Below are positions 34,298-57,076 of a DNA stretch of 64,000 nt, in pieces; the stretch's first letter is position 1, and every line of letters starts with the position of its first letter. The position numbers were made by a program, and so were the translations under genes. The stretch covers positions 2,799,505 through 2,863,504 of the forward strand of contig NZ_CP056123.1 in assembly GCF_018219155.1 (NCBI RefSeq). Direction: 5' to 3'. The notes under the pieces are model-generated. The model searched no databases. It was not told the origin of the DNA and worked only from the letters and a program-made list of their open reading frames with translations. The DNA comes from Moritella sp. 24 (GTDB lineage: Bacteria > Pseudomonadota > Gammaproteobacteria > Enterobacterales > Moritellaceae).

Positions 34298-34323
34298 AAG
34301 ATTTTATTTATAATAGAGTTAGA

Positions 34324-35505: not shown

Positions 35506-36185
35506 TATTTAACCTCACTTAAATTGATAGCTTCTAGACTGTGATAACCTTCTGATTGCGAGTAGTCCCACTGACGCGGAACGTGTTTATAGCTCACCGT
35601 TAATTGATCATCAACTGACTGAGTGTTAAATAAAATGCTGTTTTGAGTTCCCGTCATATGTAGTGCAAGATCATTTTTAATGGCCACACACTGCTGATTA
35701 ACACAAGCAGTTACATCAGATGAAGACAGCCATGTATGCGTATAAAGATCGAGCTTAAAACGCCCTACTGCAGCAGGAGAAACAGTAAAGCTAAAACCGC
35801 TATTGCTCAATGTCATGGCATTATTAAACTTGTCAGCATAATCCGCTGAACTGCCACTATTCCACGTATAGCGATTAGCATGTACCGGTTTATCGCCCGG
35901 GTAATGTTGAACAGAGCCCACATCAGTTATAGCACCGATTTTTTCACTATTCGGTTTTTCAACATAGGTATCGACATCATAAAAAAATTGCCAATCAAGC
36001 CCCTGTAGCTCAATGTCTTTTCGATGACCAGCTCCGGACAATTCATAACCGTTAAATTCACTTATAATTGATAGCTGCTCGGTTCCCGCTTTTGAGATAT
36101 TCGATAGGTTATTTAAATCTACCTCAATCTCACTTGCTGCAACAGATGATGAACATAGCAAGAGTGCTAACATCGTTTTTTTCAT
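35505..36185 (-). CDS. secreted partner protein of protease, copy 2
   Basis: 226 residues, same length as and clearly paralogous to the protein at 33258, with signal peptide MKKTMLALLLCSSSVAAS and the same TACVNQQC cysteine pair. Divergence is spread over the whole length, unlike in the neighbouring protease genes. Function unknown. Upstream leader bases are shared with copy 1. Confidence 0.7.
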   Translation of the reverse strand: MKKTMLALLLCSSSVAASEIEVDLNNLSNISKAGTEQLSIISEFNGYELSGAGHRKDIELQGLDWQFFYDVDTYVEKPNSEKIGAITDVGSVQHYPGDKPVHANRYTWNSGSSADYADKFNNAMTLSNSGFSFTVSPAAVGRFKLDLYTHTWLSSSDVTACVNQQCVAIKNDLALHMTGTQNSILFNTQSVDDQLTVSYKHVPRQWDYSQSEGYHSLEAINLSEVK

Positions 36186-41347: not shown

Positions 41348-41379
41348 AATGTTGGACAGTTTCTTTACTGCCCAACATT
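41348..41379 (-). terminator. terminator of the redox operon
   Basis: AATGTTGGACAGT (41348-41360) pairs with ACTGCCCAACATT (41367-41379) through one G-T wobble, with a 6-base loop. On the minus strand CGTTTTGAC follows. It is about 67 bp beyond the dsbD stop. Confidence 0.65.
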
Positions 41380-41446: not shown

Positions 41447-43378
41447 TTAGCTCAGTGGCACCGCCTTAGCGACCAACTTAAGGTGCGCTAAGAACTGTTG
41501 CTTGTCCATCTCACCCACAACACGCAGCTGTTTAATTTCTTCACCGTCAGCATCAAAAAACAGCATACTTGGTGGGCCAAATAACTGCGCTTTCGCCATC
41601 CATGTTGATTGAAGATTAGTATTGTCGGTAATATCAAACTTCAACGCATTAATAGATCTCATTTTAGCGGCGACGTTCATATCCGAAAAGACTTGCTTAT
41701 CCATCACTTTACACGACGTACACCAGTCCGCATAAAGGTCAACCATAGTCACGACTTTAGGCGCAGTTAAGTTATCAATAGCCTTATCGATAACTGCTAC
41801 TGATGCTGTTTTAGTAAATAACGGTTGCCTCGCTTGCGCGATACTTCCACCATTCACATTTTGCGTATTACGCTGACTAATATGCTGTAGTGGATCAGCG
41901 AGATCATCAGCGCCAGTCATCATACCAACCAATAACATCGCACCATAAACTAACGACATGAATACCACCACATGACGTAACCATAAACGGTTGGACTGTA
42001 TATCCGCAATACTATGGATGTACATTGCACTACAGATAATCAGTAATGCCCATAACCCTAATGTCACAGCGGGTGCAGAAAAACGGCTCACCAATAATAT
42101 CGCGATAGCCAGCAACATCACGCCAAACCCTTGCTTCACTCGGATCATCCAAGGACCACTGCGCGGTAAGAACTTCCCACCTGATGTCCCTATAATCACT
42201 AATGGTACGCCCATACCTAACGCCATGACAAACAATACACCACCACCGAATAACCAATCCTGAGTGGTCGACACATACAATAACGCCCCAGCTAATGGCG
42301 CTGACACACAGGGTGATACCACTAAAGCAGAAATAGCCCCCATCATGAATACCGTAAATACTTTACCGCCAGTTAATCGCTGCGATTGATTATTTAACGC
42401 AACCTGTAGACGTGATGGCAATTGCAGTTCGTAAACCCCAAACATGGCTAAAGCTAACAACACGAATAATCCAGCAAAGATCACTAACAACCAAGTCTGT
42501 TGCATTGCAGCCTGTATATTAATGCCTTGCCCAACGGTCGCCATGAGTACACCAATAAGAGCATAACTCGATGCCATACCCAGCACATACGCCAACGAGA
42601 TATAAAATCCTTTCCAACCCGTCATCCCCGCACCTTGACCACCAATAATACTCGACAAAATTGGGATCATCGGTAATACGCAAGGGGTAAAAGCAAGCCC
42701 TAACCCTAATATAAAGAACAATAGCAACGCTTGTGAACGACCTGCACCAGCTAACATACTCGCTAATCCTTGGCTGTCATTTGCTGTCTCTGTCACCGTA
42801 TCCATCAACTTATTTGTTGGTGCTATAGCCTGTCCTTTTACAGCAGTAGAAAGTGCAACATCACTCATCTCTATCGCATTTCTATCTATCGCACTTCTAT
42901 CTATCGAATTTATATCAATCGTCTTACGTTGTGGTAGATAACACAATCCACTGTCTGCACAGCCTTGGTAATTCACTTTCACGCTGCCACTGCCAGTGAA
43001 AGGTAAAGTAACGGTTAGTGCTTGATGATAAACCTTAACCAAACCAAAATTAGGATCTTGCTTCTGTTCTGCTTCCACTGAATATTGCGGCTTAGCTAAG
43101 CTAATATTACCATCGACAACTTTAAACGAAAAACGCTTGTGGTAGAGATAATAGCCCGGCTCAGTCGCGAAGCTTAATACCAACTTATCACCCTCGTTTG
43201 AACGTACAATTTGAGACGAAAATGGGAAAGCTTGCTTAACCGTCAAAAATACGGACTCTGTATTACTGTTACTTTGCGCTAACGCAGAAACGCTGGTACT
43301 CATTAATAACATCAGGAAAATACAACACTGTGCAATAACCTTATTTACTTGTAACGATACTTTCAAAAGTGCCTTCAT
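41447..43378 (-). CDS. dsbD: thiol:disulfide interchange protein DsbD
   Basis: 643 residues, full DsbD architecture. Signal peptide, periplasmic alpha domain with the cysteine pair in GCADSGLCYLP, an eight-helix membrane domain with its two cysteines in FTPCVLPMIP and VSPCVSAPLAG, and a C-terminal thioredoxin-like gamma domain with WCTSC. Carries electrons from cytoplasmic thioredoxin to periplasmic acceptors. Last gene of a five-gene operon; overlaps the ApbE gene by 4 bp. In this setting it may supply reductant to the TlpA-like protein or the Cys-rich tail of the DUF4266-like protein (inference). Confidence 0.93.
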   Translation of the reverse strand: MKALLKVSLQVNKVIAQCCIFLMLLMSTSVSALAQSNSNTESVFLTVKQAFPFSSQIVRSNEGDKLVLSFATEPGYYLYHKRFSFKVVDGNISLAKPQYSVEAEQKQDPNFGLVKVYHQALTVTLPFTGSGSVKVNYQGCADSGLCYLPQRKTIDINSIDRSAIDRNAIEMSDVALSTAVKGQAIAPTNKLMDTVTETANDSQGLASMLAGAGRSQALLLFFILGLGLAFTPCVLPMIPILSSIIGGQGAGMTGWKGFYISLAYVLGMASSYALIGVLMATVGQGINIQAAMQQTWLLVIFAGLFVLLALAMFGVYELQLPSRLQVALNNQSQRLTGGKVFTVFMMGAISALVVSPCVSAPLAGALLYVSTTQDWLFGGGVLFVMALGMGVPLVIIGTSGGKFLPRSGPWMIRVKQGFGVMLLAIAILLVSRFSAPAVTLGLWALLIICSAMYIHSIADIQSNRLWLRHVVVFMSLVYGAMLLVGMMTGADDLADPLQHISQRNTQNVNGGSIAQARQPLFTKTASVAVIDKAIDNLTAPKVVTMVDLYADWCTSCKVMDKQVFSDMNVAAKMRSINALKFDITDNTNLQSTWMAKAQLFGPPSMLFFDADGEEIKQLRVVGEMDKQQFLAHLKLVAKAVPLS

Positions 43379-44247
43379 AATAAAAAATCCGTATTTTGAT
43401 GTACATTCAATTGAGCATCAACTAATGCAAAACCTATCTCTTCAGGTACGACTAAACGAGGGTTAATCGTTAATGCAGTACTCATGATCCCAGCTTGCAA
43501 GGCACTATCAGCGACGACTGTCACGGAGATGACTTGTTTGTGGGTATCTTGCGAAGCTAAAATATGAGAACTTTCTTCATCTGAAAATTGCTGTCTACGC
43601 GCATAATGTGCAGATGTGGTGAGCGCTTGATTACACAGGGGTAATGCAAATAAAGCCTGTGTTTGCTCATGAGGGTTAACAACACCAACAACAAAGTCAC
43701 TGCCATCAACTTTGCAGCCTGACGCTCTAATATCACCACCAAAGTTAACCAACACACCACGACTCGTTTGTTCCGCTATCGCTAACGCTTGATCCACAGC
43801 GACTTCTTTGATCACACCACCGAGATCTAATCGTGTAATGGGGTAATTCACGACTAGTGTATTGTCTTCAATGTCCCACACCGCGAGCCCCATATAAGGA
43901 GCCGCAGCTTGATAGACTTGCTCGCGCGTGGACGTGCCATTTTGCAACAGTGCTTTGACCGTACCCACTGTAATATCAAAGATACCTTGTGTTAATGCAC
44001 TGTATTCACGCACTTTAAGTAAAATATCACGGGTTTCCGCATCAATAACGACACGCTTACAACTGCGTTGGTTAATCAGTTTTGTTAACATCGATGTGTC
44101 AGAATAAAAATTAAACTTTTCTTCTAAACGTCGTGTATTCGCTTCAATATCAAGAGCTAATTGCGCCGCATTAGACGCAATTAATGTCACTTCACACGGT
44201 ACAGTCATTGCCATAAAACGATGTACGTAAGGTGTTTTAATAGTCAT
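43375..44247 (-). CDS. apbE: ApbE-family FAD:protein FMN transferase
   Basis: 290 residues. ApbE signatures: FDITVGTV, the RLDLGGVIKEVAVDQAL segment and VNFGGDIRASG. Known members transfer FMN from FAD onto a Ser/Thr of exported proteins with a Dxx(S/T)GA(S/T) motif. No signal peptide or lipobox is visible (MTIKTPYVHRFMAMTVPCEV starts directly with the catalytic fold), unlike classical lipoprotein ApbE, so it may act in the cytoplasm before export. Overlaps the DUF3570 gene by 11 bp and dsbD by 4 bp. The neighbouring DUF3570 protein is its likely substrate. Confidence 0.87.
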   Translation of the reverse strand: MTIKTPYVHRFMAMTVPCEVTLIASNAAQLALDIEANTRRLEEKFNFYSDTSMLTKLINQRSCKRVVIDAETRDILLKVREYSALTQGIFDITVGTVKALLQNGTSTREQVYQAAAPYMGLAVWDIEDNTLVVNYPITRLDLGGVIKEVAVDQALAIAEQTSRGVLVNFGGDIRASGCKVDGSDFVVGVVNPHEQTQALFALPLCNQALTTSAHYARRQQFSDEESSHILASQDTHKQVISVTVVADSALQAGIMSTALTINPRLVVPEEIGFALVDAQLNVHQNTDFLL

Positions 44248-45454
44248 ATGTCACTCCTACGGCCCACCATTTACTCGCATAACCATTACTTTGTTCATAA
44301 TAGGCCGCAAGTGCATTCATCCGCCATTTAGCTGATAGTTTGATGCTGGCACCAAGTTCATAAGCATTCGCATTAAAATCACCGAGTCGAATATCTGACG
44401 TTGCATAACCTGTCGATGCAAATGTAGGATCGGCCGCTTTCGGGTCAATGAAGAAGTTTGCGCCTTGTTGGTTATACCAGAAATAACCCGGTGCGAACGT
44501 TAACCAATCAGTGACTTTTACACTCATTTTACCACCGAGCTGATGCGACATAACCCCCCAGTCATCAGCGAAAAACTTATAACGAGGGCGTACGACAATA
44601 CTGTCACTCACGCTATAAAATGTCTGTACATTTATCCCGCCAGACATGCGTGTATCCGGACGAGAATCCTGCCCTAAAAAGACTTCATCATCACCAATAA
44701 TACCGTCACCATCAATATCAACCTCACGTAATACAGTGAGATAATGGTTACTTAAATAGCCACTTTTATGCCCGCCATAAGCCGTAAAGATGGCATATAG
44801 ATTCGGCGTAAATACTTGTGATACACCGACTTCCACACTAGAGGTCAGAATATCTTCCCATTGCTGGGCATTACCGCCATTTTTATATTCTTGAAATGCT
44901 AATGTTTTATCCGCAAGTATTGAACCGCCAAGACTAAATGAGCGATTTTTACTGCTGTCTGTGTAAAATAACGCTTTCGCATTAGCACCCATGCTTTTGT
45001 AATCTTCTTCTTGCGAATAGTTCACACCAACAGTCCATTCATCTCGGTCTTTATCACGAAAAGTAACATTGGTTGACGCAGAATAACGCGTATCTTCTAG
45101 TTCTACAGGGCGGACTTCATAGTTATCACGGTAAGGGTCATAACCGGCACGGATAACTTCCGAGGTCATATTCTGTGCATCTTGAGTAATCTGATCATGA
45201 GAACCAGATGGCGGTGTAGTTGAAACCCAAGCTGGTGACGCGCCAGATACAGTGTCATAACCCAACTCTGCGGTAATAGTCCAATCCAATCCAATGTTTT
45301 TCTCTACAGACAGGAGGTTATCACCAGCATTTACTTTATCGCCGTATTCTTCAAAACTCATGTGATGGATAGAAATATGATCAGCGGCTGATACTGAACC
45401 AGCAACAAGACCGAGTAAGGTTAAGGGTAATTTTATATTCATTATGTTATTCAT
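44237..45454 (-). CDS. DUF3570 outer-membrane protein with flavinylation-like motif
   Basis: 405 residues. Signal peptide to about residue 24 (AGSVSAAD), then alternating amphipathic strands ending in aromatic VTYDY, as in an outer-membrane beta-barrel. Overall layout fits DUF3570. Residues 67-73 read DTVSGAS, matching the ApbE target consensus Dxx(S/T)GA(S/T), which makes S73 a candidate FMN-bearing residue. An Asp-rich DIDGDGIIGDDE segment may bind calcium. It sits between the DUF4266-like gene and apbE. Start at 45454; an in-frame ATG at 45442 is possible. Confidence 0.82.
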   Translation of the reverse strand: MNNIMNIKLPLTLLGLVAGSVSAADHISIHHMSFEEYGDKVNAGDNLLSVEKNIGLDWTITAELGYDTVSGASPAWVSTTPPSGSHDQITQDAQNMTSEVIRAGYDPYRDNYEVRPVELEDTRYSASTNVTFRDKDRDEWTVGVNYSQEEDYKSMGANAKALFYTDSSKNRSFSLGGSILADKTLAFQEYKNGGNAQQWEDILTSSVEVGVSQVFTPNLYAIFTAYGGHKSGYLSNHYLTVLREVDIDGDGIIGDDEVFLGQDSRPDTRMSGGINVQTFYSVSDSIVVRPRYKFFADDWGVMSHQLGGKMSVKVTDWLTFAPGYFWYNQQGANFFIDPKAADPTFASTGYATSDIRLGDFNANAYELGASIKLSAKWRMNALAAYYEQSNGYASKWWAVGVTYDY

Positions 45455-45561
45455 CTTTAATTAGTTACAACCGTGATTTATCCGCTATTCCTTATAAATC
45501 ACTCACGATAGAATTAGCATCTATTTACAGGCTAATAATGTTAAATGCGGATCATGTGTTT

Positions 45562-46434
45562 TTAGTTACAGCCACAACCGCCACCACCGACGCCATTACC
45601 ACCGATAGAGCCTTGTTTGTAGGCAAAGACTTTTTCAGAAAAGACATCAAATTCAGGTACTTCACCACCCGGCTTCATCGCCTTTTTCGCAAGCGTCCCT
45701 TTTTGCCAAGGTTTAACAGGTTTCACACTAAACCAGTCACTAATCGCCGAGAACAACGATGGCTCTTCGCTCTCATCACGAGGCTCAGGGGCAACAAATG
45801 CTGTCGTATTTAAAATTGGATGAATAGGCACCGAGGTTGGCATCACTGTCGATGTAGGTATCACTGGCGGCTTTAGCACTACTGCTGTTTTTGGTATCAC
45901 AACCGCAGCTAATGGCAGTTGCGGTTTCACTGCCTGATTAACAACAGGCTTAGCCTCAGTCATCGTTGCTGCGACTGGTGAAATAGGTGCAAGTGTCGGC
46001 GTTATTTTTAATGGTAAGGGATGTATCACAGGTGCTTTCGAAGCTGGTTTAGGCTGTACTTGTACCGGAGTAATAACAGCAACAGCAGACGTTTTAGGTT
46101 CAGCAACCACTTTAGCTTCCATAGATGACTCCGTAGTAGGTGCCGTAGTAGGTGCCGTAGTAGGTGCCATAGTAGACTCCGTAGCAGGTGCCGTAATAGC
46201 TTCTGCGTCAACGCGAGACTCTGCGATAATTTCAGGTTTAGGTTCAGGTTTTTGTTTCGCCTGCACAGATGGATGCGCTAGCTCTGCAACAGTTTGTTGG
46301 CTTTTATACACGATACTTGATACAGATTCGGTTACTTGATAGCGACCACTTGGATCCGTTTCAACAACTGCAGCTTGTAATCCGACACTCAGCAAAGCAG
46401 ACGCTAATAATGTTAATTTTGAATAGTGTTTCAT
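45562..46434 (-). CDS. DUF4266-like protein with Cys-rich C-terminus
   Basis: 290 residues. Signal peptide ending GLQAA, a long Ala/Pro/Thr/Val-rich low-complexity middle (about 45-220) and a conserved-looking tail: KPWQKGTLAKKAM, then GGNGVGGGGCGCN at the very end. This tail matches the small DUF4266 proteins that accompany DUF3570 genes, but those are usually short; here the tail is carried on a long flexible arm. The CGC end could bind metal or form a disulfide or thioether (inference). Overlaps the tlpA-like stop by 4 bp. Confidence 0.75.
   Translation of the reverse strand: MKHYSKLTLLASALLSVGLQAAVVETDPSGRYQVTESVSSIVYKSQQTVAELAHPSVQAKQKPEPKPEIIAESRVDAEAITAPATESTMAPTTAPTTAPTTESSMEAKVVAEPKTSAVAVITPVQVQPKPASKAPVIHPLPLKITPTLAPISPVAATMTEAKPVVNQAVKPQLPLAAVVIPKTAVVLKPPVIPTSTVMPTSVPIHPILNTTAFVAPEPRDESEEPSLFSAISDWFSVKPVKPWQKGTLAKKAMKPGGEVPEFDVFSEKVFAYKQGSIGGNGVGGGGCGCN
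46133..46168. repeat. three 12-bp tandem repeats in DUF4266-like gene
   Basis: Three perfect copies of GTAGTAGGTGCC encode a repeated APTT segment in the low-complexity arm. A degenerate fourth copy follows. Length variation here would stay in frame. Confidence 0.8.
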
Positions 46435-46895
46435 TGACTCAACCCCATCGCTGCGAGATCGCTGGTAATCACATCACCGATATGATTAATCGCACCATAG
46501 CGGATCTTTAATACTTGTCCCTGATAAACATAATACAAGGCAGGCATACCTATAGGTTGAAAGTCATCAACGAGCGTTTGCTTATCATCATTTACAACAC
46601 GGAAATTGATCCCCAATGATTGCTGAAAGGCAATACCTGCCGCAGCATCCTCGTCCACATCAACACCAACAACATCAACCCCTAAGGCACTTAATGCAGG
46701 TACAATCTGATTAACTTCAGGTAGCTCGGCACGACAAGACACGCACCACTCGGCAAAGAAATCAATGAGCGAAACTCGATTTGGATCCAACCCAAGTTGC
46801 GCTTGAGCTGACGCAGAAAGCATTTCACCTTCTTGATAAGCATGCGCTTGGCTAGACAACAATAAGGTGAACACCACAAGCCACTTTTTAAACAT
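46431..46895 (-). CDS. TlpA-like periplasmic thioredoxin
   Basis: 154 residues. Signal peptide MFKKWLVVFTLLLSSQAHA, then a thioredoxin fold with FFAEWCVSC (active-site C-V-S-C) and the cis-Pro in IGMPALYYV. First gene of the operon, with GAGG before the ATG. Known TlpA/ResA proteins reduce specific periplasmic disulfides; the Cys-containing tail of the next gene product is an obvious candidate partner, and DsbD a candidate electron source. Confidence 0.87.
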   Translation of the reverse strand: MFKKWLVVFTLLLSSQAHAYQEGEMLSASAQAQLGLDPNRVSLIDFFAEWCVSCRAELPEVNQIVPALSALGVDVVGVDVDEDAAAGIAFQQSLGINFRVVNDDKQTLVDDFQPIGMPALYYVYQGQVLKIRYGAINHIGDVITSDLAAMGLSQ

Positions 46896-46987: not shown

Positions 46988-48178
46988 CTACTCCCCAAAC
47001 ACAATTCTTTCCGTGGTTTTAACGTTGACAGCATCCTTGAAATAAGCCGCTAAGTCAGTGCTATTACTGGCATCAAATACAGCACCACGAGAGCCCGCGC
47101 ATTGTTTGAATTGCTGAATACGATCTGCAGATACCCCAAAACCGATAAAACTCACTTCAATATTTAAATCCTGCTGAATCGCATCACACAAACCTGCAGC
47201 CATTAAGTCATTAAAATAATCTCTTCTGCTGTCGTCACCGTCTGTAAACAAAATCAGACGTTGAGTCAGCGCTTTAGATTGAACAGGCACTACTTTCCAT
47301 TCTTTTTGCCATTGCTCGGTGAGTGTTCTAACCCCCCAGATAAATCCTTGATAAGAGGCTGTGCTACTGCCACTTGTTTCTAACGAATCAACATGACGCA
47401 TGACCTGATCAAGATCGCTGGTTAGCGGTAAAATAAATGAAGTTTCACTACAGCGGTCGAGCCAAGGGTCCGGCGTTATTTCATTAAAATTCAGGCGGTC
47501 AGAGGCATAATTTAACGACTGCACCGTTTTGTTTGCATCTAGATTACCGCCGCTATAGACCAGACTATCGACACACTTAGGACTTGCGCTAGAGTTTGCT
47601 AGCCAAGGGGCGTCCGTTATACCGACACCCGTTTGAAAAGGCACAACAGAAAAACGCACCTGATTACTCTTTGGGTCGATATCATTAATCACGTCAGTAA
47701 TTATTTTTTTCAACTCAGGTAAGTCCCACGTCATTGACCCTGAAATATCCAACACAAGTGAAAAATCAACCGGATTTTGAATAACACTCTGTACTAATTT
47801 AGAGCGTGACAAACCGTTAGAGCTAATTTGAGTGTCGCCATCAACCTCGATAGGAAGTGAACCCGCGATTACGGGGTCAAAACGATACTGCGCCGAAATT
47901 TGACAACCGTTACGACTATTTAACTCAACGCTATTGCCGAGCAAAGGCAGTACAAAGTTAGGTCGGTAATAATCTAAAATACCATCGGTAACAACGGGGT
48001 TGTCACTTTGCTGATACGTACAAGCAAGTACAGCAGAATCAACCGCTTGCCCTGCTCGAATAACAACTTGACTATACATAGAGAAAAACACTGAAATAGC
48101 CAACAAGCTCATTATCGCTGGCAACATAAAGGTAAACGTTAACGCAATCGCGCCTCGTTGATGGGATAGACTAATCAT
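46988..48178 (-). CDS. tadG: TadG-like pilus protein with VWA domain
   Basis: 396 residues. N-terminal prepilin-like/TadG segment (HQRGAIALTFTFMLPAIMSLLAISVF), then a von Willebrand A domain with the MIDAS motif DISGSM and TDGDD. TadG proteins are envelope components encoded at the end of tad loci. Overlaps tadF by 4 bp and is the last gene of the locus. Confidence 0.83.
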   Translation of the reverse strand: MISLSHQRGAIALTFTFMLPAIMSLLAISVFFSMYSQVVIRAGQAVDSAVLACTYQQSDNPVVTDGILDYYRPNFVLPLLGNSVELNSRNGCQISAQYRFDPVIAGSLPIEVDGDTQISSNGLSRSKLVQSVIQNPVDFSLVLDISGSMTWDLPELKKIITDVINDIDPKSNQVRFSVVPFQTGVGITDAPWLANSSASPKCVDSLVYSGGNLDANKTVQSLNYASDRLNFNEITPDPWLDRCSETSFILPLTSDLDQVMRHVDSLETSGSSTASYQGFIWGVRTLTEQWQKEWKVVPVQSKALTQRLILFTDGDDSRRDYFNDLMAAGLCDAIQQDLNIEVSFIGFGVSADRIQQFKQCAGSRGAVFDASNSTDLAAYFKDAVNVKTTERIVFGE

Positions 48179-48777
48179 ATTGTCCGTCCTATGAGTAACG
48201 CGGAACTTTGGTAATAACGTTCACTGAAATTGCTTAGTAACAAAGGAGTAAAGTCACCTGTAAAACTATCAATGCTTTTAAGACAAAGTGTGATTTGAAA
48301 TAGGTCAGCATGTTTACCAGCATTTAGACCTTGTGTTGTGCCCAAGGGTGATAAATCAGTTAAAGACAATAATGACTCCCTTGATAAGCACTCTGCGCCA
48401 GTATTTACATCATATAACTGCGGTTTTTGTGTAATCGGATCAAAAGTGACTTGTTCAAGATGAAGTCCAAGCTCAGCAGAAGACTCAATAAGTAAGGTGT
48501 TGAAATGACGCTGAGCCACCAGCAGTAACGAGTCAGCTAATTCACTTGAGATGATCTTGGTCTTTGGGGCTGATGCCTGCATGGTATTGTCGCAGTCATC
48601 ACAAGCAGCAATTGACGTCAGTGCATAAGTAAGATTATTTAGCTGGTTTTTTTGGTTGATACCCTGATTTATTTTCACGATGAATAAAACCAATACCACG
48701 ATGATTAATGTAATAACGGGTAATTCAATAACGCTGCTGCCACGTTGCAAAGATCGCATATTACGGCTTATTCGCAT
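48175..48777 (-). CDS. tadF: TadF-like pseudopilin
   Basis: About 200 residues. N-terminal pseudopilin signature RGSSVIELPVITLIIVVLVLFIV with a Glu at +5 after a Gly, as cleaved by TadV-type prepilin peptidases. The remainder is unremarkable. Frame extends to GTG 48786; ATG 48777 has GGAG upstream and is preferred. Overlaps tadE and tadG. Confidence 0.75.
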   Translation of the reverse strand: MRISRNMRSLQRGSSVIELPVITLIIVVLVLFIVKINQGINQKNQLNNLTYALTSIAACDDCDNTMQASAPKTKIISSELADSLLLVAQRHFNTLLIESSAELGLHLEQVTFDPITQKPQLYDVNTGAECLSRESLLSLTDLSPLGTTQGLNAGKHADLFQITLCLKSIDSFTGDFTPLLLSNFSERYYQSSALLIGRTI

Positions 48778-49237
48778 AACTCGCACTCCGCTCTAATGTC
48801 ACTAAGACCGTGCGTTGGAACTCAGTTAAGCGGCTAAAACTGTCAATCTGCCCCGAAATAAAGAGCGCTTGATAGGGATACACTAACGTAAACTCAGCAA
48901 AATCCTGACCGTTAAAATCTTCAGCATCAATGTCATTAGCCAGTGATTTCAACGTGTCAAAATAGCGTGCCTGAATGGTGATTTTACTGCTATCCAATAA
49001 CGGTAGGTTTTGCTCCGACAAGGTTAATTGCAATTTACTGGTCAGGTCTTCACTCGCACTTTCTACCACTAACACGCGTGTTGCAGCAGCAAGCGCCACA
49101 TCAATCACACTACTCATCATCATAAAACGGCATATTTCAATCAACGCTAACAACAACACAAAAAACGGTAAGATCGTGACAGCAAACTCAATACTGACAC
49201 TCCCCTGCTGCTGATGCTTGGCTTTACAAAAACTCAT
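48761..49237 (-). CDS. tadE: TadE-like pseudopilin
   Basis: 158 residues. N-terminal QQGSVSIEFAVTILPFFVLLLALIEI, the TadE-like motif (PF07811) with Gly-SVSIE, followed by a short periplasmic domain. Minor pilin of the Flp pilus. Overlaps tadD by 4 bp. Confidence 0.83.
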   Translation of the reverse strand: MSFCKAKHQQQGSVSIEFAVTILPFFVLLLALIEICRFMMMSSVIDVALAAATRVLVVESASEDLTSKLQLTLSEQNLPLLDSSKITIQARYFDTLKSLANDIDAEDFNGQDFAEFTLVYPYQALFISGQIDSFSRLTEFQRTVLVTLERSASYANKP

Positions 49238-50172
49238 TGCTGCACCTGCTGTAGTGGTTGTGGTTGTGGTTGTGGTTGTGGTTGTGATTGTGATTGCTGC
49301 AGGTGTTGTTTCTGAACGGCTTGTAGCTCTTGTACTTGTTGTAACTCTTGTACTTGTTGTAACTCTTGTACTTGTTGTAACTGTTGATAATAGGCGAGAT
49401 TATTTTCTAACTCCGCTTTGGTTAGATCTTGTTTTGCAATGACTTCTGCCGCTTCAACATCCCCTTTCATCGCAAACGCTAATGCCAGATTCTGACGACT
49501 TTTAGATGTTGAACTACCACGTAAATAATGTGAATAAAGTACATCAATCCCTTGCTGTGGTTGACCATCTAAGATCCAAGCCAAGGCTAAGTTATTCCGA
49601 TATTCCAAATTTTCTGGTGCATTCGCTAACGCGCCAGTAAACGCAGTTCTTGCCTGGCGGTAATCCTTAAATAATGCGAAATTAATGCCTAAGCTATTTA
49701 ATGCTTTAGCGTCATTTGGTAATAAGATTACTGCTTGTTTGAGATCTGAAAGCGCACCCTCAACTTGCCCTAAACCCTGTTGTGCATTGCCTTTTTCACG
49801 TAAGATTTGCCCATGAATAAGATCTGATGATTCTGAGTCATCCGCTTCATTACGCAGTACAGATTGTGCTTGGTTAAGATAATGTAGCGCTAAATCAAAC
49901 TCAGACATTTGATTATAAGCAATGCCAACAGCCAATAGCAGCGCCGTGTCATTAGGTTGCAACTCAAGTTGTTTACGGTAAATGGTGATCGCACTATCCG
50001 GTCGTCCACTTTCGAGAGCCAGTTGCGCAAGTTCACGGTCTGAACGCATTTCTTCAACTTGGTTTAGCTGATTTGAACTGCACCCGACTAGCATCAACAA
50101 ACCGCACATCAACAGCATATTTGATAATGAGATTTTCAATGTGCATAGCGTGAATAAATGAGTCATTATCAC
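49234..50172 (-). CDS. tadD: TadD-like TPR lipoprotein
   Basis: 312 residues. Lipoprotein signal ending LMLVGC, then at least four tetratricopeptide repeats (about 40-230) as in TadD, the pilotin-like assembly factor of Tad secretins. The C-terminal 50 residues are pure low complexity: QVQELQ repeats and a QSQPQPQPQPQP stretch, encoded by tandem DNA repeats. Such a tail is unusual for TadD and may vary in length. Overlaps tadC and tadE. Confidence 0.83.
   Translation of the reverse strand: MIMTHLFTLCTLKISLSNMLLMCGLLMLVGCSSNQLNQVEEMRSDRELAQLALESGRPDSAITIYRKQLELQPNDTALLLAVGIAYNQMSEFDLALHYLNQAQSVLRNEADDSESSDLIHGQILREKGNAQQGLGQVEGALSDLKQAVILLPNDAKALNSLGINFALFKDYRQARTAFTGALANAPENLEYRNNLALAWILDGQPQQGIDVLYSHYLRGSSTSKSRQNLALAFAMKGDVEAAEVIAKQDLTKAELENNLAYYQQLQQVQELQQVQELQQVQELQAVQKQHLQQSQSQPQPQPQPQPLQQVQQ
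49255..49296. repeat. hexanucleotide tandem tract in tadD
   Basis: Five copies of TGGTTG followed by two TGATTG, read on the coding strand as QP and QS dipeptides. Slippage changes length in frame. Confidence 0.85.
49329..49382. repeat. three perfect 18-bp tandem repeats in tadD
   Basis: CTTGTACTTGTTGTAACT is repeated three times without change, with a partial copy before it. Encodes the repeated QVQELQ hexapeptide. Confidence 0.85.
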
Positions 50173-51047
50173 AAGCCTCCAAGACTATCTAACAAGGCGA
50201 TAACCGTCGGTGCAACAATAAGCACCACAACAGGTAGCATGATTAACACCACCACAGGTAATGACATTTTCGCGGGGATCTTACCGACCTTTTCTTCTAA
50301 ACGAAGGTATTGATATTGACGACTATCACTGGCAATTAAGCGTATCGTAGGTGCAATTTTACTGCCGTATTTTTCAGCTTGAGATAAAGCGATAACCATA
50401 TTTTCAACTTCCACTAAACCCGTTCGCTGCGCTAAATTATCTAATGCGGTAACACGAGAATTTAATAAACGTAATTCCGCTTCAGTGATTAGCCATTCTC
50501 GGGATAACTCAGGGGTAATCGTCGCCATTTCGTGACCCACACGTTGAAATACCGCTTCTAACGTCAAACCGGATTCAACACAAATAACCATCAGATCTAG
50601 CGCGTCAGGTAACGCGAGGGCAATACGATAATTGACGGTACGAGCACGCCATTTCAGCCAGTGCTCAGCAAGTAAACCACCAGAAATAGCAAAGACTAAC
50701 GTTTTAGCAATTTCAAATTTATCCAAATCAAAATCTATATACCACTGCCATGCCATCGCACTGATTAACATTAAGGTAATTTTGCAGAGCATAAATATCG
50801 CGCCTGCTCGAGGGTCATGAAAACCAGCTTTAACCAGTAATGCAGCGATATCAGGCGCAACGGTCAAACGTAACCAAAGGTTCGACTTGTATCGAGAAGA
50901 ATTAGATAATTCGCCAGTCTGCGTTGCTGAAACCAAGGCAAGTCGTTTTAATAACAATTCTCGACGTTGTGCAGGGCCATTAAATATCAGCGCCATCACA
51001 GCACCACTAATCAGTAAAGTAACGGCAATCCATAGAGATAAAGACAT
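50169..51047 (-). CDS. tadC: TadC-like inner-membrane platform protein
   Basis: 292 residues with a type II secretion F domain (ALPDALDLMVICVESGLTLE) flanked by helices, and a C-terminal helix pair. Partner of TadB in the membrane platform of the Flp pilus machine. Overlaps tadB by 1 bp and tadD by 4 bp. Confidence 0.88.
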   Translation of the reverse strand: MSLSLWIAVTLLISGAVMALIFNGPAQRRELLLKRLALVSATQTGELSNSSRYKSNLWLRLTVAPDIAALLVKAGFHDPRAGAIFMLCKITLMLISAMAWQWYIDFDLDKFEIAKTLVFAISGGLLAEHWLKWRARTVNYRIALALPDALDLMVICVESGLTLEAVFQRVGHEMATITPELSREWLITEAELRLLNSRVTALDNLAQRTGLVEVENMVIALSQAEKYGSKIAPTIRLIASDSRQYQYLRLEEKVGKIPAKMSLPVVVLIMLPVVVLIVAPTVIALLDSLGGL

Positions 51048-51979
51048 TAGGCTCTCACCTTCGTTAACAAATGAATAATAGCCAGACCAATTGTCATACT
51101 AGTCACGACATAACCCAAGACTAAGTGACCACTTGGACTTTCGGTTAAGGTGATAAATGCACTCGGATTTTTGAAAAACATCACACCGATAAGCAGTACA
51201 GGTAAACTCGCTAAAATTGCAGCTGTCATACGCGGTTCAGCCGTTAAGCTTTTAATTTTCATCTTAATCGCCGCATTGTCATGCACTGTACGACTTAAGC
51301 TATGTAGTACCTCTCGAAGCTGACCACCATTCTCTTCATTTAAGATCAGTGCAACACTAAAGAAGTGAAAACTGACGTAAGGTAAGCGAACACTGGCTTG
51401 GCTCAATGCTTGCTTTAAGCCAATTCCAATTTCTAACTTATCGCGGATCAAGGCAAATTCACGCCCCAACATTCCTTGTTGATAATCAGCTATCTGCGCA
51501 ATGGCTTGCGGTACCGAAATACCAGCTGATACAGCACGTGACATTTGGCCAAGTACTTGTGTGAAAGCCGCCTCAAACTCACTATGCTGACGTGTACTCA
51601 TGAACCAATAACTCACACCAGAAACTAGCACAATAGTAATCGCAATAATCATCATTCTTATTAACGGGGCAAAAAAAGACAGCGTAAACCAACCTGCAAG
51701 TGTCATAACCGCTAATGAGATAAGCAACCAACGCTTAGCTTGGCGATCAAATAACGCATCGATACGAGATTGTAACTGCAACCCATACTGTACTAATGGA
51801 TTGGTTCTTTGCGTCCAATGAAAGAGTGTGGAAGCTTTATGTGTAGATGTACCAACAACTGTCGCTAACATGAGTCGACGCTTTAACACCCGTCTTTGCT
51901 GCTGATATTGCAGTACTTTCAAAGTGCTAAACAAGAACACAATCGATAATAGCAAACCTGTAATCATCACCAGCATCAT
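51047..51979 (-). CDS. tadB: TadB-like inner-membrane platform protein
   Basis: 310 residues; N-terminal helix, then a type II secretion F domain (FTQVLGQMSRAVSAGISVPQAI, with GGQLREVLHSLSRTVHD) and C-terminal helices. Forms the inner-membrane platform with TadC. ATG overlaps the tadA stop by 4 bp. Confidence 0.88.
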   Translation of the reverse strand: MMLVMITGLLLSIVFLFSTLKVLQYQQQRRVLKRRLMLATVVGTSTHKASTLFHWTQRTNPLVQYGLQLQSRIDALFDRQAKRWLLISLAVMTLAGWFTLSFFAPLIRMMIIAITIVLVSGVSYWFMSTRQHSEFEAAFTQVLGQMSRAVSAGISVPQAIAQIADYQQGMLGREFALIRDKLEIGIGLKQALSQASVRLPYVSFHFFSVALILNEENGGQLREVLHSLSRTVHDNAAIKMKIKSLTAEPRMTAAILASLPVLLIGVMFFKNPSAFITLTESPSGHLVLGYVVTSMTIGLAIIHLLTKVRA

Positions 51980-53334
51980 CGCACTCCCAATGCTTGTTTT
52001 AACTGTGATTCAAGTTGATAGTAACGGGCCTTTTCAGTAAAGCGCGGGAGTATCTTATTTGACAAGAATTGCCCCACAAGATCGCCATTTACATCCATGT
52101 ATTGATAATCAAAATGGAATAAATCATGAGTCAGATATTGATCGCCTTCAAGGCCCACAACCTCAGTGATATTCACAATACGACGTTTACCATCTCGCAT
52201 ACGTTCTACTTGTACAATCACGTCTAAAGTACTGGCAATTTGACGGCGTAATGCTGATACAGGCAAATTGACTTCTGCCATCTGTAACATATTTTCTAAG
52301 CGAATAAGCGCATCATGTGGGGAGTTAGCGTGAAGCGTTGACATTGAACCATCATGACCGGTATTCATCGCCTGCATCATATCAAATGCTTCAGCGCCAC
52401 GAACTTCACCCAAAATAATACGGTCTGGGCGCATTCGCAGAGCATTACGTAATAATTCACGTTGTCCAATGGCGGTAGACCCTTCTGCATTCGCAGGGCG
52501 AGTTTCAATGCTGACAACATGTGGTTGCTGTAATTTTAATTCCGCAGCATCTTCAATCGTGATAATACGTTCGTCGGGTGAAATACCAAATGACAGCGCA
52601 TTCAATAATGTTGTTTTACCTGCACCCGTACCACCAGAGATCAATACATTTACACGTGAACGAGCAATAATATTCAATACACTCGCCATCTCGCTCGACA
52701 TTGCACCTAATGCAGCAAGCTGTTCTAAACTGTGCTTCTGTTCATTAAATTTACGAATCGAAATACACGTACCATTTAATGCTAATGGTGGAATGAGCAC
52801 ATTCACTCGGCTACCGTTTGGTAAACGAGCATCGACCATAGGTGTTGTTTCATCAACACGGCGGCCAATACGACTCACGATTCTTCTCGCTAAGTTCAAT
52901 ACGTGTTCTTCATCGCGAAAACTCACGTCTGCACGTTTTATCTTACCGCGATACTCAACAAAAACTTCACGATGTCCATTAACCATAATGTCGGTGATCT
53001 CTGGATCATCCATCAACACTTGTAACGGCCCAAGCCCCAGCATTTCATCAACAAGGCGTTGACTAATTGCACGCTGTTCAATACCGCCAATCGGAAATTG
53101 TTGACGTGCAGCTATATCCCCTACTGCTTCAAACGTGCGGACTTCAAGCTCTTCGGGGCTAAGTGTGACAACAACCGCTGGGGCGATAATCGCCATGATT
53201 TCTTTTTGAATAACACGAAAACGCTGTTCTTCAATATGATGATTCGGTGTTACCTCTGCAACAGACGTTAGTACTGACAATGTTGACGCTGATTCAGTCT
53301 CTGGTGTCGATGTTGTTATACGCGTTCCAAACAT
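51976..53334 (-). CDS. tadA: TadA/CpaF pilus assembly ATPase
   Basis: 452 residues. Secretion ATPase of the CpaF/VirB11 group: N-terminal domain with GPLQVLMDDPEITDIMVNG, Walker A GGTGAGKTT, Walker B-like RIILGEVRGAEAFDM and the His box STLHANSPHDAL. Powers Flp pilus assembly. Adjacent to tadZ with a 1-bp overlap. Confidence 0.93.
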   Translation of the reverse strand: MFGTRITTSTPETESASTLSVLTSVAEVTPNHHIEEQRFRVIQKEIMAIIAPAVVVTLSPEELEVRTFEAVGDIAARQQFPIGGIEQRAISQRLVDEMLGLGPLQVLMDDPEITDIMVNGHREVFVEYRGKIKRADVSFRDEEHVLNLARRIVSRIGRRVDETTPMVDARLPNGSRVNVLIPPLALNGTCISIRKFNEQKHSLEQLAALGAMSSEMASVLNIIARSRVNVLISGGTGAGKTTLLNALSFGISPDERIITIEDAAELKLQQPHVVSIETRPANAEGSTAIGQRELLRNALRMRPDRIILGEVRGAEAFDMMQAMNTGHDGSMSTLHANSPHDALIRLENMLQMAEVNLPVSALRRQIASTLDVIVQVERMRDGKRRIVNITEVVGLEGDQYLTHDLFHFDYQYMDVNGDLVGQFLSNKILPRFTEKARYYQLESQLKQALGVR

Positions 53335-54173
53335 TACGCCCCCTTACGCCAGCGAAATAAACGTCGCTTCGATGCTTCAGTATCACCACTAATCAGTGCA
53401 ACTAATTTTTTAAGCGCTTTCGCATTACGGCTTTTTTGCGTTATCGCTAATACGCCTAATGCACTACTCGTGCGCATATAACCTGGTGAATATGGTATTT
53501 CAGCGTCCAGTTTTCGATCTAATGTCGCGGCCACATCTTTCGCTGTAATTAACGATAGAGACTCAGGTGTTGTATGATTCAACACCACTAATGTGCGTGT
53601 TGTTGATGACGTTTCTAACTTCGTCAGTAATTGATTAGTACTGCGAATAGACGCCAGTGTTGGTTCAACGATCACAACACGAATATCGCTACTATTTAAT
53701 GTGTCAAAACCCACTTTATCGCGTAAACAAAACGCGGGAATATCCCAAAGTAAATGCGTTGCTTGTTGTAAACAGAATGCCGATACTTTCGCCATACTTG
53801 TTACATCAGGCCAGAAGTGCTGCTCAAAACCTGACGCATAGCCAGTAAACACATATAAGTCATCATTCACCTTGATGCCACTACGTTGGTAGATAACAGG
53901 TTCTAGACGATCAGGAAATTGCAGCATTTCTAATAATGCATTGTTCGCTTGTACGCTAAATTGCAGATCTAAATCACCGGTGACAAAGTCAAGGTCTGCA
54001 CAAGCAACGCTTGTATTCTGCTGTTGTGATAAACCCCAAGCAATATTCGCTAATAAAGACGTTGTACCCGCGCCACCTTTGGCACTGACTATCGCAATTT
54101 TATTCGTATTAATCGGATTATTCACAACATCACCGACACTATATTCATTCGCTATTGGCTGAGACATATTCAT
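53334..54173 (-). CDS. tadZ: TadZ/CpaE-like pilus localisation ATPase
   Basis: 279 residues. ParA/MinD-type fold with deviant Walker A KGGAGTTS and ADLDFVTGDLDLQF, as in CpaE/TadZ. The N-terminal receiver-like domain of longer CpaE proteins is missing. Directs the Tad machine to the pole in characterised systems. Confidence 0.85.
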   Translation of the reverse strand: MNMSQPIANEYSVGDVVNNPINTNKIAIVSAKGGAGTTSLLANIAWGLSQQQNTSVACADLDFVTGDLDLQFSVQANNALLEMLQFPDRLEPVIYQRSGIKVNDDLYVFTGYASGFEQHFWPDVTSMAKVSAFCLQQATHLLWDIPAFCLRDKVGFDTLNSSDIRVVIVEPTLASIRSTNQLLTKLETSSTTRTLVVLNHTTPESLSLITAKDVAATLDRKLDAEIPYSPGYMRTSSALGVLAITQKSRNAKALKKLVALISGDTEASKRRLFRWRKGA

Positions 54174-54175
54174 GA

Positions 54176-54805
54176 TTATTGTCCCCCTAAACTAGCGGCA
54201 ATAGTCTTATCCGCATTAGAGTCTGTTTTCGTATTACTATTTGCACTCGGTTGGTAATAAGCATCAACCCTTGAAACCGCTTTACGCCCTTCTGTTGCAT
54301 CAAGGGTGCGCCCAACAATCAGATCTCTTGGTGTCGCGACCATTTGCGCTAACGCACTGACATTTGCACACCCAAAATTAGGACTAGAGTTGAATTCATT
54401 CAGCACCATATGCCCCTCTTTACCAGCTTGGCAATGAGGAACAAGGCTACGGTATGACTCAACGATCAAAACAACATCGATTGTTGATGACGTCTCTTTA
54501 ACTTGGCTTGCCACCTGAGATGGATACACGCCAGCCTCTTTCAATAAAGTGATTAATGCAGGTACGACGTTTGTACCTTTATCACTATAACTGTCAATTT
54601 TAACCCTCAGTGCAGACTGCTCGCCACGTTGATAAATAAAGGTATTAATCGCTGCTTTATCACTTTTTGTTAGTCTTGTTGAATCAAGTTTCAACGCAAT
54701 TTTATGTGTCACGGCTTCTACTTGAACCTGTGGTTGTCGCTGTACAGAATCAATGGCACACGCATTCAACAAACCACACATTATTAATATCGAAAATATC
54801 CGCAT
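54176..54805 (-). CDS. cpaD: CpaD-like pilus lipoprotein
   Basis: 209 residues from ATG 54805, with GAGG five bases upstream; the open frame extends to 54838. Lipoprotein signal ending LLNAC. The C-terminal NFGCANVSALAQMVATPRDL is the diagnostic CpaD motif. Outer-membrane partner of the secretin. It begins 7 bp after the secretin stop. Confidence 0.85.
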   Translation of the reverse strand: MRIFSILIMCGLLNACAIDSVQRQPQVQVEAVTHKIALKLDSTRLTKSDKAAINTFIYQRGEQSALRVKIDSYSDKGTNVVPALITLLKEAGVYPSQVASQVKETSSTIDVVLIVESYRSLVPHCQAGKEGHMVLNEFNSSPNFGCANVSALAQMVATPRDLIVGRTLDATEGRKAVSRVDAYYQPSANSNTKTDSNADKTIAASLGGQ

Positions 54806-54812
54806 AACTACC

Positions 54813-56216
54813 TCAGTAATAAAATCCGTTATCGCCAAGCAGTCGCGGTTGGCGATTGTCGGTACGATCTACATTGTCTGTTGAATTTGTTGCTTGTGTT
54901 GATATTGGCCACGCTAATAAACGTTCAACATCGCTCATCGGGATCAAACCATCCGTCGGTAGCGGTAACGAGTCAGAACGTGTTGGTTGCACTAAATAAG
55001 CAGTCGCAATAATAATGAGTTCGGTTTCTTCACGCTGAAATTCTGTTGAACGAAATAGCGCACCAAGTACCGGAATATCACCCAGCAATGGCATCTTTTG
55101 TAACTGCTCAATATCTTTTGATTGCAACAAGCCCCCTAACGCAAAGCTTTGACCACTAGCCAATTCAACCGTCGTTGATGCACGGCGCGTTACAAAGGTC
55201 GGGAATGAAGAACTGCCTTGCTGGCCACCAATTTGCACACTGGTTTCCGATGACACAGTACTGACCTCAGAAGATACTTTTAGACTAATTTGATTAGCAC
55301 TTAATACGACAGGTTTAAAATCTAATTTCACACCAAATTGCTTATATTCAACCGAGGCCGTATCACTGTAAACTAACGGCAGTGGGATCTCGCCACCCAC
55401 TAAGAAGGATGCTTCTTCACCACTCATTGCGGTCAGGTTTGGTTCAGCTAATACCGACATCATGCCATTAGTCGCTAATGCATCAACGATCACCGATAGA
55501 TCAGCCCAACCCGCAGGATTAACACCGCCAAGTTTGCCACCGTAGTTTTCTAAAAATGCAAACGTACCGGTACCAAAACCCTGTGAGCCCCACTTAATAC
55601 CTAATTTATTTGATACTTTACGGGACACTTCAGCAATGCGAATACGCAAGTTAACTTGATTAGGCATGGTGACTTGCAATTGGTTTATTAGCTCATCATC
55701 ATCCGTTTTAGTGGCTGGAGCAGGTGCGGCAGTCGCACCTTTCTCATTATCCCCTTGCTGACCCTCACTCGACTCAGAAACGGCAAGTGAAGAAACATAA
55801 CCTTCAGACAAACGAACAATTTTCTCTGCCATGCTTGGTGTTGGTACTTGCCCTTTTAAGAACAACTTACCCGCTGTCGACTCAGCATTAAATATCGCGT
55901 CAGGAAACTCACTATGAATCAGGTCATTAAGTTCGGTGACATTATGGTTAACCTTCACTGTTGCAGAGTAAATAACATTTTCTTTTGCATCGAGTACATA
56001 CAATGATGTACTGCCTGTTTTCTTACCAAATACCATTATCTTGGTGTTGGTTAATGTTTGATAATCGGCAATACCACTACTGGCAATAAAAATAGATTTC
56101 GCAGTTTTTGGTAACACCACTAATCGGGCTTTGTTTAATACCACATCTAAGGTTTGCGCTTGTAACGCAGCGCTAAGTAATAATAGCGACAATGCACTCA
56201 CTAATTGTTTAATCAT
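54813..56216 (-). CDS. rcpA: RcpA/CpaC outer-membrane secretin
   Basis: 467 residues. Signal peptide, N-terminal secretin-associated domain (ARLVVLPKTAKSIFIASSGIADYQ), a BON-like segment and a C-terminal type II/III secretin domain (LAEPNLTAMSGEEASFLVGGE ... SFALGGLLQSKD ... VPVLGALF region). Forms the outer-membrane pore for the Flp pilus. Overlaps rcpC by 4 bp. Confidence 0.93.
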   Translation of the reverse strand: MIKQLVSALSLLLLSAALQAQTLDVVLNKARLVVLPKTAKSIFIASSGIADYQTLTNTKIMVFGKKTGSTSLYVLDAKENVIYSATVKVNHNVTELNDLIHSEFPDAIFNAESTAGKLFLKGQVPTPSMAEKIVRLSEGYVSSLAVSESSEGQQGDNEKGATAAPAPATKTDDDELINQLQVTMPNQVNLRIRIAEVSRKVSNKLGIKWGSQGFGTGTFAFLENYGGKLGGVNPAGWADLSVIVDALATNGMMSVLAEPNLTAMSGEEASFLVGGEIPLPLVYSDTASVEYKQFGVKLDFKPVVLSANQISLKVSSEVSTVSSETSVQIGGQQGSSSFPTFVTRRASTTVELASGQSFALGGLLQSKDIEQLQKMPLLGDIPVLGALFRSTEFQREETELIIIATAYLVQPTRSDSLPLPTDGLIPMSDVERLLAWPISTQATNSTDNVDRTDNRQPRLLGDNGFYY

Positions 56217-57076
56217 TTTTCGTTTCCTGCATTGCTCATCACTCGTTTATCCTTCGCGCGAAATTCAACTAAACCAATATCAGGTTGAACCTGCTTGATG
56301 GCAGGTAAAATATCGTCGACATTAATCGCAGGAATAGCTGCGATACCTGTTTCATCGTTGTTTTTACTGCGCAGTACCATTGATAACGTACCAAGTTGAT
56401 TTGCTAACGTAATTTGGTTCGCTTGTATTGGCGAAACCTCTAACGTCACGGTACTATTATCTGGAATAACACCTTTGTTACTCTTTTGTTTTTCCATATA
56501 ACGCGTCAATTGTAAGGCGTCGTTAAATGCCAATACTCGGACATTTTGAGCGATGGTTTTAACGTATAAACTCTGGGTTTCATTACCGCGTGAGCGTAAC
56601 TCTTGCGCTTTTGATGCAAGCAATAACACGTCAACATGATCACCGGGACCAATTAAACCCGAATTCGCAGTGACTTCATCAACAGGCACTGAAACCGCAC
56701 GGTAGTTTGGACGTAACATCACGGATAAAAATCCACCTTGTTCCGGTTTCAAAAAGTCTGATGGACTTAATATTTGTCCCGCAGAAAAATCACTGGCTGC
56801 GACCGTATTTTCCAAACGAGTAATAGAGAAAGTCGCTTTATCAATAAAGTCGATACGATCATCTACATCACTTTCATCTACTTTTTTCCAAGCGAATAAC
56901 GAGGCGCTATAGGGGCGACCAATGGTGATATGTTGTGTCGTTACAAGTACTTCATAAGTTTTAACAGTCGTCTGTTTAGGGGTGCTTTTTGCTGGTGCAG
57001 ACAAGCCAAAAAACAACCATACTAATCCCAATAGCGAGATACAAACAGACAGATAAACTAAACGTTTTGCATTCAT
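56213..57076 (-). CDS. rcpC: RcpC/CpaB pilus assembly protein
   Basis: 287 residues. N-terminal membrane anchor (about 7-27), SAF domain (LVTTQHITIGRPYSASLFAWKKV), then the RcpC segment YRAVSVPVDEVTANSGLIGPGDHVDVLL. Periplasmic component of the Tad outer-membrane complex. First machinery gene after flp. Confidence 0.92.
   Translation of the reverse strand: MNAKRLVYLSVCISLLGLVWLFFGLSAPAKSTPKQTTVKTYEVLVTTQHITIGRPYSASLFAWKKVDESDVDDRIDFIDKATFSITRLENTVAASDFSAGQILSPSDFLKPEQGGFLSVMLRPNYRAVSVPVDEVTANSGLIGPGDHVDVLLLASKAQELRSRGNETQSLYVKTIAQNVRVLAFNDALQLTRYMEKQKSNKGVIPDNSTVTLEVSPIQANQITLANQLGTLSMVLRSKNNDETGIAAIPAINVDDILPAIKQVQPDIGLVEFRAKDKRVMSNAGNEK

Follow-up and report, generated by a model that had tools for sequence, protein, structure and literature searches.

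Gene clusters that combine the transmembrane thiol reductase DsbD, the flavin mononucleotide (FMN) transferase ApbE, a DUF3570 protein, a thioredoxin and a DUF4266 protein have been described by Meheust 2021 (PMC8238504), where, in the passages of that paper considered here, 285 flavinylation clusters with DsbD are reported, 227 of them containing DUF3570, 221 the CxC-tailed DUF4266 and 183 a thioredoxin-like protein. The same passages report that DUF3570 from Chlorobium luteolum is flavinylated by its own ApbE in E. coli, at two [ST]GA[ST] motifs, and propose DsbD as the electron source. We describe a set of the same five families from the window, i.e. the whole 64,000-nucleotide stretch of Moritella sp. 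24 DNA under analysis, where, as read from the sequence, it stands at the 3' end of a run of 17 genes that includes a tad/Flp pilus locus (57309-41447, minus strand). We consider it probable, on balance, that these five genes form a redox tail to the tad operon, in which electrons would pass from DsbD via TlpA and DUF4266 to FMN on DUF3570, and from there outside, in the service of the pilus.

The kind of system is known; its setting is new. The window set shares with the DsbD-type system, as the relevant passages of PMC8238504 describe it, the five families, including the flavinylated DUF3570 protein, the CxC-tailed DUF4266 protein and DsbD as proposed source. By contrast, the window DUF4266 protein is long-linkered and has no lipobox, the set ends a tad operon and its ApbE has no signal; neither the tad-operon placement nor the signal-less ApbE is discussed in those passages, and the parse of DUF3570 as a barrel with the FMN site on its outer face likewise goes beyond them. 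In the available parts of the main text of a 2024 follow-up (PMC11334425), DUF3570 is unnamed and the outer membrane is mentioned once, as a site of flavinylated proteins. A full-text search for literature on DUF4266/DUF3570 returned Meheust 2021 only. Full-text searching, with most subscription papers outside its coverage, found no paper joining ApbE with TadG, or DsbD with a tad operon or Flp pili, and no title on a pilus–redox link was among the matches listed for tad/Flp pilus with DsbD/thioredoxin/ApbE, ApbE with barrel, TadG with disulfide, or Tad pilus with extracellular electron transfer.

The initial annotation of this DNA had recognized five minus-strand genes in the order TlpA-DUF4266-DUF3570-ApbE-DsbD, with three junctions overlapping by 4-11 bp and the sequence DTVSGAS at residues 67-73 of the DUF3570 protein. 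All of this is borne out by the open reading frames and by Pfam matches above the curated cut-offs, complemented by NCBIfam, the junctions being -4 (tlpA/duf4266), +107 (duf4266/duf3570), -11 (duf3570/apbE) and -4 bp (apbE/dsbD). The span it assigned, 43375..46895, covers four of the genes, with DsbD falling outside, and the annotation overlooked the complete tad/Flp locus upstream on the same strand and the signal-less nature of ApbE. The window DUF4266 protein has a signal-peptide-like start, no lipobox, a Pro/Thr-rich linker and the C terminus GVGGGGCGCN. DTVSGAS is the sole [ST]GA[ST] in the window DUF3570 protein, compared with the two of the Chlorobium protein in the published passages; some relatives have two or three. 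At the 29 loci that comprise the window type and its nearest kin, [DE]xx[ST]GA[ST] occurs in 33 of 414 open reading frames, of which 29 are each locus's DUF3570 and the other four are lipoprotein-like genes at two loci, L289 and L290; with one motif-bearing DUF3570 at each of 29 loci, the occurrence of the motif in this family exceeds chance. The ApbE motif of NqrC/RnfG, Dxx[ST]GA[ST], is common to the window DUF3570, whereas the NqrC/RnfG site is at the inner membrane and their ApbE is exported. Searches of the PDB gave, for DUF3570, a single match with an E value of 0.18, and, for ApbE, the known ApbE structures.

DUF3570 was searched for in overlapping sets of 59 relatives (26 matched), 369 class genomes (95) and 398 phylum genomes (29), and two peptide patterns, which find close relatives only, were run against 84,980 named species genomes, yielding 27 loci (4 Moritella, 3 Photobacterium, 20 Vibrio/Vibrionales). 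The neighbourhoods are a hand-chosen subset of the matches and contain 167 full-length DUF3570 proteins, 153 after removal of 14 near-identical ones (at least 98%). Of these, 145 were grouped as W (window type, 24), F (62) and N (59, with the motif followed by [IVP]D[VA]), leaving eight ungrouped: the long fusions L097, L106 and L116, and L149, L167, L207, L217 and L220, which do not fit at the aligned site. A tblastn search against plasmids matched three Vibrio replicons, one of which was examined and has no annotation under the match.

The tad locus in the window has TadA, RcpA, RcpC, TadE/F/G and, recognized by eye, a Flp-like pilin, in the order flp, rcpC, rcpA, rcpB, tadZ, A, B, C, D, E, F, G of tad/Flp (type IVc) loci, from which it differs in the added redox set. 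Two or more tad proteins are found near all 24 W-type DUF3570 genes and near none of the 62 F, 59 N and eight other genes (0/129), in loci that reach approximately 5-7 kb each way, five F and two N loci having less than 2 kb upstream; a single weak match, to RcpA or TadA, was seen at each of four F loci. Among 295 genomes drawn from the order, those with a TadG orthologue (E<1e-60) and those with a W-type DUF3570 (E<1e-150) are the same 13, and 282 have neither, at limits chosen after a gap in the scores had been seen; both are absent from two of the 11 genomes of the genus, and all 13 TadG orthologues are followed by TlpA and DUF4266. The presence of tad genes beside every W-type set, together with the co-occurrence in the same 13 genomes, indicates that the set travels with the pilus, suggesting that pilus and electron outlet cooperate. 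The redox module was not found at seven distant TadG-like loci; five of these have other genes in the next stretch, and at L272 and L274 only 279 and 78 bases follow the TadG-like gene, neither genome having a DUF3570 match. The Moritella genome has two other TadA homologues (54% and 49% identity). At L288 a DUF3570 gene of 36% identity lies right behind those for TadD, TadE, TadF and a TadG-like protein (Pfam Tad domain, 22.8 bits; cut-off 22.3); this distant relative is a third indication of the link.

The DUF3570-linked ApbEs appear to lack an export signal. In the window, TGA CAT directly precedes the ATG of apbE, a stop codon thus lying two codons upstream of the start, and the protein has neither the signal peptide nor the lipobox of a periplasmic lipoprotein ApbE. 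By a home-made rule, a hydrophobic-stretch test over all possible starts, none of the 67 ApbEs encoded within 1.5 kb of DUF3570 looks exported (W 0/24, F 0/43), compared with 27 of 30 control ApbEs from N-type genomes (best match per genome, 30 genomes). Of the three ApbEs of the Moritella genome, the two linked to DUF3570 are likewise without a signal, whereas the third, encoded elsewhere, carries one of the lipoprotein type. Three of the five N-linked ApbEs pass the rule; that of L145 has a hydrophobic N terminus without positive charge and that of L226 fails. The contrast between linked and control ApbEs suggests that FMN is probably attached before DUF3570 is exported. The Chlorobium test fits such an order, in that the methods of PMC8238504, as they read, used a signal-peptide-truncated cognate apbE for a DUF2271 pair and 'a similar cloning strategy' for DUF3570, i.e. 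signal-truncated proteins in E. coli. A cytosolic, likewise signal-less ApbE is described, in the available parts of PMC12052999, for Klebsiella pneumoniae, although there the target is a soluble, cytosolic fumarate reductase and not an exported outer-membrane protein.

Sixteen strands were marked by eye in the window DUF3570 protein, from an alignment (A1); measured over 145 proteins, median anchor distances are 13-16 for the seven odd-to-even connections and 17-51 for the remaining eight, so that tight turns (7/7) alternate with longer connections (8/8). In group F, the standard deviation in length is at least 3.4 for six of the eight long connections and does not exceed 2.6 for any turn. 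A C-terminal aromatic residue is present in 24/24 W, 59/59 N and 46/62 F proteins; in the window protein this residue, the signal peptide and the even strand number, for strands set by eye, are consistent with an outer-membrane barrel. The last strand of such barrels ends in the periplasm, hence the long connections should face outward. The FMN site is at the start of the connection that is longest and varies most, opposite the C terminus, and would then sit where the third strand ends on the outside, on the outer face. All 15 residues conserved to at least 95% are on the loop side (262/380 positions; P=0.003, groups weighted equally), as are 19/21 at 90% (P=0.02) and 24/28 at 80% (P=0.03); the bias is weaker for strand residues alone (9/13 vs 88/183). 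DUF4266 adjoins 142 of the 145 grouped DUF3570 genes (W 24/24, F 59/62, N 59/59) and has the CxC tail in 142/142, as found with a search profile that includes the tail, so that tail-less forms could escape. A lipobox is present in 40/59 F and 38/59 N proteins and in none of the 24 of group W, in which a Pro/Thr-rich linker brings the protein to 154-290 residues; we infer that the tail threads into the barrel. DsbD is present at 24/24 window-type loci.

FMN on S73 of DUF3570, as the initial annotation had proposed, is very likely, since the motif is invariant in 24/24 W-type proteins and a relative is flavinylated by experiment; in the light of PMC8238504, as far as its relevant passages go, this was, however, published in 2021 and is not new. 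The same applies to two further proposals in that annotation: a flavin-bearing barrel as a new electron route agrees with the barrel parse, but the system and its flavinylation had been published, and a reducing supply through TlpA and DsbD matches the published proposal of DsbD feeding a thioredoxin-like/flavin system. A suggested check, whether the motif is conserved only where apbE is linked, gave a mixed result. An apbE gene lies within 4 kb of DUF3570 at 24/24 W, 45/56 testable F and 5/55 testable N loci, and Gly occupies motif position 5 in 24/24 W and 9/59 N proteins (mostly Ser in N), the 62/62 in F being uninformative in that F was defined partly by Gly. Gly thus co-occurs with apbE linkage (69 Gly and 5 not-Gly among the linked, 19 Gly and 42 not-Gly among the unlinked); as independent proof (Fisher p 1e-14) the association was dropped, being essentially one tree split and not significant in an independent-pairs test. 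In group N, Dxx[ST]xA[ST] is retained, for the most part with no apbE linked, and the last Ser/Thr is present in 59/59. Each of the 32 N-type genomes checked encodes an ApbE somewhere, 13 of them at no more than 30 kb from DUF3570 and three of these 13 directly next to it (counted from coordinates). N-type DUF3570 may thus also be flavinylated, by ApbE acting in trans, and the motif-linkage check cannot separate linked from trans cases. In a tree from a quick search (129 rows, including 8 of the 24 W rows), W forms one clade with support 100, N forms one clade except that two F-labelled rows with a lost motif (L212, L215) fall inside it, and F is scattered in several places.

Gene content and order, the FMN-site motif, the tie of this DUF3570 subtype to one tad subtype and the signal-less ApbE can be read from the sequence, whereas FMN at S73, the outward polarity, the electron path and a joint role with the pilus are deduced. 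Taken as a redox tail of the tad operon, the set may work as follows. ApbE in the cytosol would put FMN on Ser73 of the DUF3570 precursor, ahead of Sec export, and DUF3570 would then be built into the outer membrane as a barrel of 16 strands whose outer face carries the FMN. DsbD would carry reducing equivalents from cytosolic thioredoxin to TlpA, which would reduce the CxC tail of DUF4266; the glycine-rich tail could reach into the barrel and pass electrons to FMN, which would hand them to a putative outside acceptor or to part of the pilus. The pilus may anchor the cell on a surface where the electrons are used, or may itself be altered by them.

Several points weigh against this proposal. 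The tad link belongs to one clade and perhaps reflects one ancient event that was then kept, and the DUF3570 relatives at L289 (34%) and L290 (32%) are without tad. With eye-drawn strands, the contrast between turns and loops is to some extent circular; one of the seven turns reaches a median of 23 in group N, and a dynamic-programming placement of strands on profile hydrophobicity gave 19-22 strands among its best solutions, an over-prediction that was not used for polarity. The home-made export rule misses some exported proteins (positive in 144/151 TlpA, 138/163 DUF4266 and 127/167 DUF3570). Modification before export requires the assumption that an FMN-bearing chain passes Sec and BAM, and the Chlorobium ApbE, by the wording of the methods of PMC8238504, may have a signal peptide, which would weigh against a general rule.

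It may be that an ordinary DUF3570/DsbD system merely lies behind a tad locus, with pilus and electron path independent, as is suggested by the other DUF3570 types without adjoining tad, including a second operon in the same genome (L030), by the tad-less L289/L290 relatives, and by the 92-bp gap between tadG and tlpA in the window. This gap is, however, 9-81 bp at 11 of the 12 other TadG loci (at L263 the longest tlpA frame overlaps tadG), the tad link is kept at all W-type loci while the genes downstream of the module change (no family in more than 7/24), and presence and absence agree across the 295 genomes; independence is accordingly possible but doubtful. The module could instead maintain the thiol/disulfide state of TadG and TadF, the flavin being an electron valve for that upkeep and not for outside acceptors. 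Six Cys are conserved in 25-26 of 26 TadG and two in 26/26 TadF proteins, and DsbD and TlpA belong to families of thiol reductants, but similar cysteines at tad loci without the module (4-12 in the seven distant TadG-like proteins, 2-4 in five of six TadF-like ones) make this quite improbable; thiol upkeep should also need no flavinylated barrel, and most surveyed DUF3570 systems are without tad.

The orientation of the flavin and the place of its attachment also allow other readings. A flavin that faces the periplasm, or that sits on a loop folded into the barrel, might reduce something there, e.g. iron for uptake, in line with the 25 clusters with a ferrous iron transporter for which iron assimilation has been suggested (PMC8238504, same passages), and the DUF3570 topology is itself deduced. 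We consider this unlikely, given the FMN site at the longest, most variable connection, opposite the C terminus, and the motif-bearing lipoprotein-like genes that adjoin DUF3570 at L289/L290; the recurrent upstream neighbours are tad genes, as seen without a separate search for iron genes. Export of ApbE without a classical signal, followed by modification in the periplasm as for NqrC, would suit an exported target, and most bacterial ApbEs seem secreted (PMC12052999, available parts). Such a route appears very unlikely in view of the lack of a signal-like N terminus in all linked ApbEs, the stop codon just ahead of the window apbE, the cytosolic ApbE of Klebsiella and the published use, as the methods read, of signal-truncated proteins.

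A redox tail of this kind would have wider meaning. In MtrCAB-type porin–cytochrome conduits an electron carrier is threaded through an outer-membrane barrel; the logic proposed for the window system is the same, with thiols and covalent FMN instead of haems, and no cytochromes are among the identified genes of the window-type cluster. Should the flavin prove to lie outside, DUF3570 and the DUF4266 tail together would be a thiol/flavin counterpart of such conduits, and haem-free export of electrons across the outer membrane is, in our judgement, hardly explored. If FMN is indeed fixed on the barrel before Sec export, this would be an unusual order in the making of a flavoprotein. The tie to one tad subtype gives a concrete context and phenotypes, i.e. 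adhesion, biofilm and surface reduction. More speculatively, and as an idea held with low confidence, the tad pilus would have an electron outlet built into it, a thiol-to-flavin outer-membrane conduit with FMN fixed in the cytosol, so that attachment would be coupled to the release of electrons, whether to minerals, to humics, to a host or to the pilus.

Coordinates of the redox set, the tad/Flp locus and the lipoprotein-like genes of two related loci (window positions unless a locus is named)
Feature	Position	Strand	Basis or remark
Flp-like pilin, 59 aa	57130..57309	-	named by eye from sequence
RcpC/CpaB	56213..57076	-	PF16976
RcpA secretin	54813..56216	-	PF00263
RcpB/CpaD	54176..54838	-	PF09476
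TadZ	53334..54173	-	ParA/CbiA-like below cut-off; named by position
TadA ATPase	51976..53334	-	PF00437
TadB	51047..51979	-	named by position; similar protein at same place in L291, L292
TadC	50169..51047	-	PF00482; named by position
TadD (TPR protein)	49234..50172	-	TPR families; named by position
TadE	48761..49237	-	PF07811
TadF	48175..48786	-	PF16964
TadG-like minor pilin, VWA domain	46988..48178	-	PF00092; TlpA and DUF4266 follow in 13/13 orthologues
TlpA-like periplasmic thioredoxin	46431..46895	-	PF00578/PF00085 over cut-off; signal-peptide-like start, CVSC
DUF4266 protein, window type	45562..46434	-	PF14086 at residues 240-290, E 1e-16
DUF3570, predicted 16-strand outer-membrane barrel	44237..45454	-	PF12094 E 1.5e-78, over cut-off
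DTVSGAS codons, residues 67-73; S73 the predicted FMN-Ser	45236..45256	-	
ApbE FAD:protein FMN transferase, signal peptide absent	43375..44247	-	PF02424 E 3.7e-40
DsbD transmembrane thiol reductase	41447..43378	-	PF02683, PF11412 (DsbD_TM/DsbD_N); NF001419 E 6.6e-171
Terminator-like hairpin, 13 pairs, 3' of dsbD	41348..41379	-	consensus match only
Lipoprotein-like, [DE]xx[ST]GA[ST]	L289 4108-7197 and 9250-11142; L290 10241-13309 and 6195-8090		

At L289 and L290, DUF3570 has two motif-bearing lipoprotein-like neighbours each. Those of approximately 1020 residues have DASSGAS/DTVSGAS at the same aligned place, those of approximately 630 residues DAVTGAT/DAITGAT, both at residue 335, and the DUF3570 proteins themselves have two and three motifs in the same predicted outer loop. 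The lipoproteins are candidate new ApbE substrates, and the whole looks like an outward flavin chain, the best hint of electrons leaving the cell. Upstream of flp in the window (57392-60697) lies a large Lcl_C-domain lipoprotein-like gene, conserved in the tad–redox locus L292 (35%, 1070 columns), the product of which is a possible surface partner; homology to the 1020-residue lipoproteins of L289/L290 was rejected; in a comparison with three proteins the only match was the one from L292.

The second DUF3570 operon of the same genome (L030, G000:C1:1474712-1475929) is canonical; its DUF4266 is a short lipoprotein, and DsbD is absent from the locus stretch examined. In N clusters two families lie upstream of DUF3570, each at 55 of 59 loci, as judged from one member each run against libraries: one, in L198 (726-3365), has a hydrazine-synthase-alpha-like domain and two CxxCH, and the other is an OMP_myx_plus barrel, e.g. 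L208 3777-4442; the N clusters may be a sister system that uses haem. The DUF3570 proteins of L097, L106 and L116, of approximately 900 residues, have a long extra half and SGAT motifs. Residues 246-257 of the window DUF3570 protein, DIDGDGIIGDDE, resemble an EF-hand calcium loop (Pfam below cut-off, E 0.07) in a predicted outside connection. Terminator-like sites are about as frequent in the region as a whole as in shuffles (17 vs 14.4). At 32074-36185 the window has a tandem duplicated gene pair (approximately 394 and 226 residues), the larger product being, by eye, trypsin-type protease-like.

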